Assembly (NCBI GenBank): GCA_022508205.1
Contig: JAFLVQ010000003.1
Span: forward strand, 1 to 41,408
Direction of reading: 5' to 3'
Length of the DNA stretch: 41,408 bases
Source: Spirochaetales bacterium
GTDB lineage: Bacteria; Spirochaetota; GWE2-31-10
Below the pieces are notes generated by a model. It did no database searches. It worked only from the letters and a program-made list of their open reading frames with translations, and had not been told where the DNA came from. Of this stretch, positions 26,787 to 27,791 are shown in pieces; the first letter of the stretch is position 1, and each line of letters starts with the position of its first letter. The position numbers and the translations under genes were made by a program.

Positions 26787-26837
26787 GCAGGGGACAGGCC
26801 CTAATGCCAAGTTGGAATACAGGTCTGTTCCCATTGC
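26787..26837 (+). repeat. Dispersed palindromic repeat copy
   Basis: GCAGGGGACAGGCCCTAATGCC-aagtt-GGAATACAGGTCTGTTCCCATTGC. Confidence 0.7.
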
Positions 26838-26927
26838 ACAATGAACAACCTACCGGCAGTGCTTAAATTCCAAAATAGAATGGGAATATCGATAAAAGCA
26901 CAATTAGTTTAATATATAATTAAATTG

Positions 26928-26956
26928 TTGACTTATTTTTTTTTTTTTTTTACAAC
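26928..26956 (+). promoter_or_regulatory. Promoter with 16-nt poly-T tract inside the -35/-10 spacer
   Basis: TTGACT (26928-26933), 17-nt spacer, TACAAC (26951-26956); T16 at 26936-26951. Confidence 0.5.
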
Positions 26957-26989
26957 CTCATAAATTATTATTATATGGAGGTCATTAAT

Positions 26990-27307
26990 ATGACAAAAAA
27001 ATTTTTTAGTGCTTTGGTAGTATTGAGTATTGCGGCAATGATGTTTTTAAGCAGCTGTACCGCTGCAGGTGTGGAATGCGGTTTGATTGGAAAATGGGAG
27101 TATAAAGAAGGGTTTGTTACAACAACAGTTGAAATCACAAACGACGACAAATGTAAAATTGACGGTGTTGAATTTGAGGTTGAATCAGTAGACGATCATG
27201 TAATTAAAATCAAAAATTCTGGTTCTGTAGAATATAAGAATTTAGGTTGCGATTCTGTTGAATTTAAAGTAGGCGGTGCTTGGTTTGAATTTTCCAAAGT
27301 TAATTAA
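26990..27307 (+). CDS. Small lipoprotein, unknown function
   Basis: MTKKFFSALVVLSIAAMMFLSSCTAAG lipoprotein signal; GGAGG upstream of ATG 26990; mature part of about 80 aa. Confidence 0.75.
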   Translation: MTKKFFSALVVLSIAAMMFLSSCTAAGVECGLIGKWEYKEGFVTTTVEITNDDKCKIDGVEFEVESVDDHVIKIKNSGSVEYKNLGCDSVEFKVGGAWFEFSKVN

Positions 27308-27334: not shown

Positions 27335-27386
27335 AAGTGTCAGACCTCAATTCCAAGTCGGAATACAGGTCTGACACTTTTTTTGT
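27335..27386 (+). repeat. Dispersed palindromic repeat copy, probably acting as a terminator
   Basis: AAAGTGTCAGACCTCAATTCC-aagtc-GGAATACAGGTCTGACACTTTTTTT; near-perfect hairpin plus T-run between convergent genes. Confidence 0.85.
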
Positions 27387-27398
27387 TACTTGCGGCGA

Positions 27399-27791
27399 TT
27401 ATTCGTTTAACAATCTCTTCTCCGAATGTTCCATTATTTTGTCATAATGCTCTATTTTATACTTCAGCCGCTCGGCACCTTTTCGCATCGCTTCTATTCT
27501 ATCCAACAGAGCTTCATATTCTTTCGTTAATATAGCTTTTCTTGCTTCCCGAGTGGACACTCCCTGCGAAAAGAGCGATATATATTCCACAAGAGATTCG
27601 ACCGGAATCATTGCTTCGCGCATGCATTTGATGAACTCAATCCAGTTTAAATCTTTTTCCTGATAATCTCGCAGTCCGCTTGATGTGCGAGTTACCATTG
27701 GAAGAAGTCCGATTCTTTCATAATAACGCAGGGTATCCGTACTCAAACCACATTTTTTTGCAACTTCGGAAATTGTCACTTTTCTCTCCAA
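27399..27791 (-). CDS. MerR-family regulator, AdhR/NmlR-like
   Basis: TISEVAKKCGLSTDTLRYYERIGLLPMVTRTSSGLRDYQEKDLNWIEFIKCMREAMIPVESLVEYI; Cys56 in the FIKCMR context typical of NmlR/AdhR-type proteins. Confidence 0.88.
   Translation of the reverse strand: MERKVTISEVAKKCGLSTDTLRYYERIGLLPMVTRTSSGLRDYQEKDLNWIEFIKCMREAMIPVESLVEYISLFSQGVSTREARKAILTKEYEALLDRIEAMRKGAERLKYKIEHYDKIMEHSEKRLLNE

Follow-up and report, generated by a model that had tools for sequence, protein, structure and literature searches.

A promoter-type architecture with a homopolymer spacer, set before a lipoprotein gene, is confirmed in the window, which is the whole stretch of 41,408 nucleotides that was analysed (contig 131 of its own assembly, G000, 2.23 Mb and 86% complete). 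The same arrangement recurs at 34 sites in two species, 15 in G000 and 19 in its congener G001, a Spirochaetales MAG from water-deer cecum. Judged from their sequences, these sites probably act as slippage-prone, spacing-tuned phase-variable promoters for mostly surface-protein genes. The initial annotation had proposed a single switch at this position; the site is real, and it is one member of a genus-wide set rather than a lone case. The features of the window copy, in the order in which they are met, are the following.

26859-26901, + strand: weak imperfect hairpin (-8.0 kcal/mol), in the position of a 60-nt hairpin in other G000 members
26910-26920, + strand: A+T-rich TAATATATAAT, 5' of the -35, common to several class members
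26928-26933, + strand: -35-like hexamer TTGACT (class consensus TTGACA, then G)
26934-26950, + strand: spacer of 17 bp, TA followed by T15 (class norm 16 bp)
26936-26951, + strand: T16 homopolymer tract, whose last T doubles as the first base of TACAAC
26951-26956, + strand: -10-like element TACAAC (in the class TACA is conserved and the last two bases are free)
26955-26982, + strand: inverted repeat over the expected transcription start (near 26963, 6-8 nt beyond TACAAC), its 3' arm on the Shine-Dalgarno sequence (-4.6 kcal/mol, z -0.8)
26977-26981, + strand: Shine-Dalgarno GGAGG, read from the sequence
26990-27307, + strand: gene of a small lipoprotein of 105 aa (LSSC lipobox, TAAGVECGLIGKWE), a member of a paralog family

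TTGACT and TACAAC thus lie 17 bp apart with T16 in the promoter spacer, as had been claimed, and the small lipoprotein expected downstream is there, starting at ATG 26990, 34 bp from TACAAC. This start is better than the mechanical ORF start at 26975, which overlaps the Shine-Dalgarno sequence. The -10 is weak at its final base, and the -35 and -10 assignments, here as at all class sites, are read from sequence. The A+T-rich element would be UP-element-like in function.

How exceptional is such a tract? The class was surveyed by reading the stretches around T/A tracts in both genomes. The 2.23 Mb of G000 hold 14 T/A runs of at least 14 nt, all of them in TTGAC-T(n)-ACA promoters or their poly-A counterparts, and a 15th class site has one A inside its tract (TTTAT12, L066). 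Nineteen of the 20 such runs in G001 belong to the class as well, the exception being a T15 tract whose downstream gene looks, by eye, like one for glutamate dehydrogenase. The arrangement is TTGAC, usually AG, about 16 T and then ACA; the tracts, of 14-18, take up almost all of the spacer, and there are 15-19 sites per genome. The -35 carries TTGAC in 33 of the 34 members and TTGAT in one, and the tract is pure in all members except L066. At four sites poly-A stands in place of poly-T (L021, L028, L039 and L040; one on G000 C126, the others on G001 C75, C6 and C7); these keep spacers of 15-17, and one of them precedes a paralog of the window lipoprotein family. Runs of 10-12 nt are otherwise unconnected with the TTGAC motif: in G000 the promoter context accompanies 14/14 runs of at least 14 against 1/19 shorter ones (Fisher p=2e-8). 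Chance is ruled out as the source of the long runs, since the non-class runs of exactly 10 (n=16) and exactly 11 (n=2) in G000 extrapolate to about 0.004 runs of at least 14, and an i.i.d. model predicts between 0.15 and 1.8, where 14 are seen. The T16 tract is not an intrinsic terminator either, because no G+C-rich hairpin lies directly 5' of it and the upstream gene is divergent. The promoter class as such, as a matter of recurrent sequence, is well supported. For poly-G, runs of at least eight number 22 in G000 and 11 in G001. Contig ends fall within 100 bp of 3/15 class tracts in G000, above expectation (p=0.002); the ends near tracts are on G000 C29, C75 and C180 and on G001 C70, where the assembly may have been broken by repeated promoter sequence or by mixed tract lengths.

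What is being kept constant in these promoters, the tract or the distance that it spans? Of 33 sites measured from TTGACN to TACA, 25 have a 16-bp spacer, five have 15 bp and three, the window copy among them, have 17 bp; with poly-T sites only, 24/29 have 16 bp. Tract length is inverse to flank length, and where the flanking G is absent the tract is usually T17, which keeps the 16 bp. When tract lengths were shuffled among flanks, the observed count of 16-bp spacers came up in 0.05% of trials (p=0.0005, to be taken as a guide, as related sites are not independent). Because tract length offsets flank length in this way, it is spacing, rather than tract length as such, that selection appears to keep. 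The conserved 16-bp spacer is probably the functional one, since constancy is not what one would expect of an OFF length. The initial annotation had taken 17 bp as the right spacing. This is questionable, as 16 is the norm in the family; most relatives are one base shorter than the window copy. Being one base over the norm, it cannot simply be called ON. In the same DNA (209 kb) the commonest form among ordinary promoters is TTGAC-N17-TATA, with 8 cases against about 2 at other spacings. Poly(dA)-poly(dT) has a helical repeat of about 10 bp per turn, shorter than that of mixed DNA, and 16 bp of it would bring the two hexamers into the register that 17 bp of mixed sequence gives.

The proposed mechanism follows from this layout. 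Each site would be a sigma70-type (vegetative) promoter, TTGACA-G-T15-TACA or its poly-A version, with the interval from -35 to -10 occupied by an uninterrupted homopolymer. In a 16-nt mononucleotide run, replication slippage would be far commoner than point mutation, and each T gained or lost would alter the distance and the helical phase of the two hexamers and with them the strength of the promoter. The driven genes, mostly for lipoproteins and exported proteins, would then be switched or graded independently in each lineage, the outcome being phase variation and bet-hedging of the cell surface. Spacers of 15-19 bp are all active in E. coli consensus promoters (PMC8695583), so a one-base change may grade expression rather than switch it. 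Loss of mismatch repair is ruled out as a cause, as mutS1 is present in G000 and G001, and for the same reason slippage need not be extreme. Tract purity favours slippage, without being proof of it. Two pairs of recent duplicates in G001 differ by one T. L029 and L030 have T17 and T16 and no other indel over about 100 bp of upstream and 149 bp of downstream aligned sequence, and L047 and L052 have T15 and T16 between 29 identical bases upstream and 12 downstream; these lengths are assembly consensus, in which a one-T error is possible. As for the phase-variable switch that had been put forward, switching is likely, though unproven, in view of the 34 occurrences across two species, the conserved spacing, the purity and the one-base differences between duplicates.

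Against switching, tract lengths are narrow and most loci are in one state, which resembles a fixed optimum more than an ON/OFF mixture. Could the tract then be a purely structural device? A pure A/T tract might be kept for its stiffness and its pitch of about 10 bp per turn, by which 16 bp phases like 17 bp of mixed DNA; it could identify the members of a regulon, or a promoter that responds to supercoiling or temperature, and slippage would be a cost removed by selection, with no switch involved. The narrow length distribution speaks for this reading, together with the compensation between tract and flank, the peak of ordinary promoters at N17 where the class peaks at 16, and the functionally mixed genes that are driven. 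A stiff duplex can be made with poly-A as well as with poly-T, which also counts in its favour. Yet pure 16-mers are mutationally unstable and stiffness would tolerate interruptions, whereas 33/34 tracts are pure; recent duplicates differ in tract length, and most targets have signal peptides (by eye). On these grounds a fixed structural promoter seems less likely than switching, yet it is a serious rival and keeps a substantial share of the probability, because the exchange of poly-A and poly-T fits slippage and stiff DNA alike and does not separate them.

If slippage-tuned promoters are the right reading, which genes do they control? Some 25 of the 32 readable downstream genes carry an N-terminal signal or a lipobox (by eye), and the domains found behind class promoters include CotH, CsgG, List_Bact repeat, BspA-type LRR, HU-DNA_bdg with DUF4469, a DUF697 GTPase and Cas3_HD, the HU-like, GTPase and Cas3 genes being the non-surface exceptions. 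The window lipoprotein has no match in Pfam. It is predicted to be a lipocalin-like barrel, as its single-sequence AlphaFold model gives eight strands in such a barrel (mean pLDDT 75), and the best PDB matches of the model include the lipocalin-like BT_0869 and T. pallidum TP0435, all of them weak (E 0.04-0.06). Searches with this lipoprotein gave five further matches in G000 and six in G001, and most of these paralogs have a class promoter. The cas3-like gene stands behind the sole interrupted tract (L066, G000 C159, - strand). Four HU-DNA_bdg/DUF4469-type genes in G001 (L037, L043, L047, L050) each have a T15-16 promoter; we take this gene family to be associated with Bacteroidetes. Two other G001 sites, L031 and L049 on C47 and C48, have almost the same sequence for about 180 bp, from the promoter to the first codons and signal peptide, with different genes behind it, and the promoter module has therefore been copied between genes. 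Control by the MerR-type product of the neighbouring gene (27399-27791) was considered and rejected, as class spacers are 16-17 bp and MerR-type activators work on spacers of 19-20 bp (PMC8113463).

Several of the promoters are accompanied by inverted repeats. Before six in G000 (L016, L018, L020, L023, L024, L025) there is an imperfect 60-nt hairpin, with a GA-rich loop (AAGGAGAA) and a changing outer stem, 22-36 nt 5' of the -35; its energy is -22 to -27 kcal/mol in L016, L018, L023, L024 and L025. Similar but divergent hairpins are found in other members, including L033, L036 and L053 of G001. A search of Rfam with the upstream hairpin gave no match except tRNAs and chance hits, and a covariance model of the six recovered only its training sites and one weak, unconvincing match in G001. 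A second inverted repeat extends from just after TACA to the Shine-Dalgarno sequence. It reaches z -2 or lower at eight sites, down to -5, and has a mean z of -0.9 over 29 sites, against 0.0 when folding begins at the predicted +1. Its 3' arm lies on or abuts the Shine-Dalgarno sequence in the window and at L016, L023, L026, L029, L030, L043 and L051. Transcripts of the class promoter would lack most of the 5' arm, and masking of the Shine-Dalgarno sequence would thus be confined to read-through RNA. The repeat could thus silence read-through transcripts, and in those members that have it, keeping such RNA untranslated would tie expression to the class promoter.

Two further explanations were weighed. 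A transcription factor or alternative sigma factor might read the whole site, from the hairpin and the A+T-rich element through TTGACAG and the T tract to ACA. Conservation does extend 5' of the -35, with the hairpin alongside in several members, which would suit such a factor, but many members have neither hairpin nor upstream motif and an outgroup homolog keeps the hexamers yet lacks a pure tract. The substitution of poly-A for poly-T also argues against a strand-specific role of protein or RNA, since the site can then do without a protein that binds T specifically and without a T-rich RNA, and we hold this explanation to be improbable. Still more remote is a promoter further upstream (TATAAT/C about 7 bp before TTGAC) that would place T16 in a transcribed leader, with an effect through RNA slippage or structure. 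Many members do have TATAAT-like strings before TTGAC, and on this reading the leader would in every case form a hairpin over the Shine-Dalgarno sequence, but the upstream string is only 44-82% conserved per position, where TTGAC and TACA hardly vary and keep a fixed distance, and poly-A versions exist.

How widely is the class distributed? A core of TTGACNG with T11 or more was found in 3/393 Spirochaetota genomes, one of them (G003) without a pure tract, and the TTGACAG version across GTDB r220 only in G001 and in one unrelated termite Treponema contig; such exact-pattern scans may miss relatives with other flanks and may omit records very near the window's own genome. The Treponema site (L082, TTGACAGT14GATACA) was excluded from the count, being a single site whose -10 is not in the usual place. 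A homolog in G007 (L034), which belongs to the order but to another family, reads TTGACAGAAATCGT10ACAAT, with the same -35/-10 spacing and a mixed spacer. General homopolymer richness of the family was set aside, for G003, of another genus, is rich in long T/A tracts but the arrangement was not found in the inspected stretches (16 from G003, 4 from G002). The promoter pattern had no match in IMG/VR either, and a viral origin was rejected. Within the searched DNA, the promoter class thus appears to be a genus-level invention.

Promoters that depend on the length of a homopolymer have been described before. In M. hyorhinis the tract of the vlp genes reportedly lies within the promoter spacer. 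Poly-A is present in the promoters of all members of this surface-lipoprotein family and turns them ON or OFF by its length (PMC10502178). The likeness is that of an A/T homopolymer in the promoters of a surface-lipoprotein family; unlike vlp, a mollicute system with size-variable coding repeats, the class is dispersed over many unrelated genes and uses both poly-T and poly-A. The T. pallidum poly-G parallel drawn by the initial annotation is apt, in that tp0126 is among the closest mechanistic precedents, and vlp belongs beside it. In tp0126, an OmpW homolog, poly-G lies in the spacer with an optimum of 17 nt and a measured reporter effect (PMC7864442). Both cases are spirochaete promoters of surface proteins, putative ones in the present class, in which a homopolymer between -35 and -10 sets the spacing by its length, but the poly-G systems are single loci, whereas here poly-T/A tracts of 14-18 occur at 15-19 sites per genome with a norm of 16, and are known as sequence only. 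The poly-G in the spacer of Neisseria meningitidis porA also governs the -35/-10 distance, as PMC7864442 describes; only one porin gene is involved there, with no promoter class common to several genes. At S. pyogenes Spy1336/R28-Spy1337, one-T indels in an intergenic T run alter transcript levels (PMC7098570), but that run is T8-13 in a divergent regulatory region, alters the distance between direct repeats and is not shown to be a promoter spacer. The kind of mechanism is therefore already known; what is new is the scale and the shared module.

Known homopolymer-spacer switches mostly serve one gene or gene family each, chiefly in pathogens. A wider and more tentative proposal, possible but not favoured, is that of a genus-wide phasome, in which one poly-T/poly-A module, with a Shine-Dalgarno-masking repeat in some copies, would give its own switch to each of 15-20 unrelated genes, HU-like and Cas3 included, the 16-bp norm reflecting the pitch of poly(dA)-poly(dT). 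If true, an uncultured gut spirochaete would have many contingency loci recognisable by one motif, and the class would show the spread of such switches among unrelated genes. Because its members have spacers of 15, 16 or 17 and either poly-T or poly-A, the class is also a ready-made set for comparing the effects of spacer length and A-tract pitch on promoter strength. Elsewhere around the window gene, 26793-26840 and 27336-27382 hold a dispersed inverted repeat, GGGACAGGCCCTAAT...GGAATACAGGTCTG(T/A)CCC, which is intergenic and recurrent and is also found at L019, L023, L024, L026 and L051.
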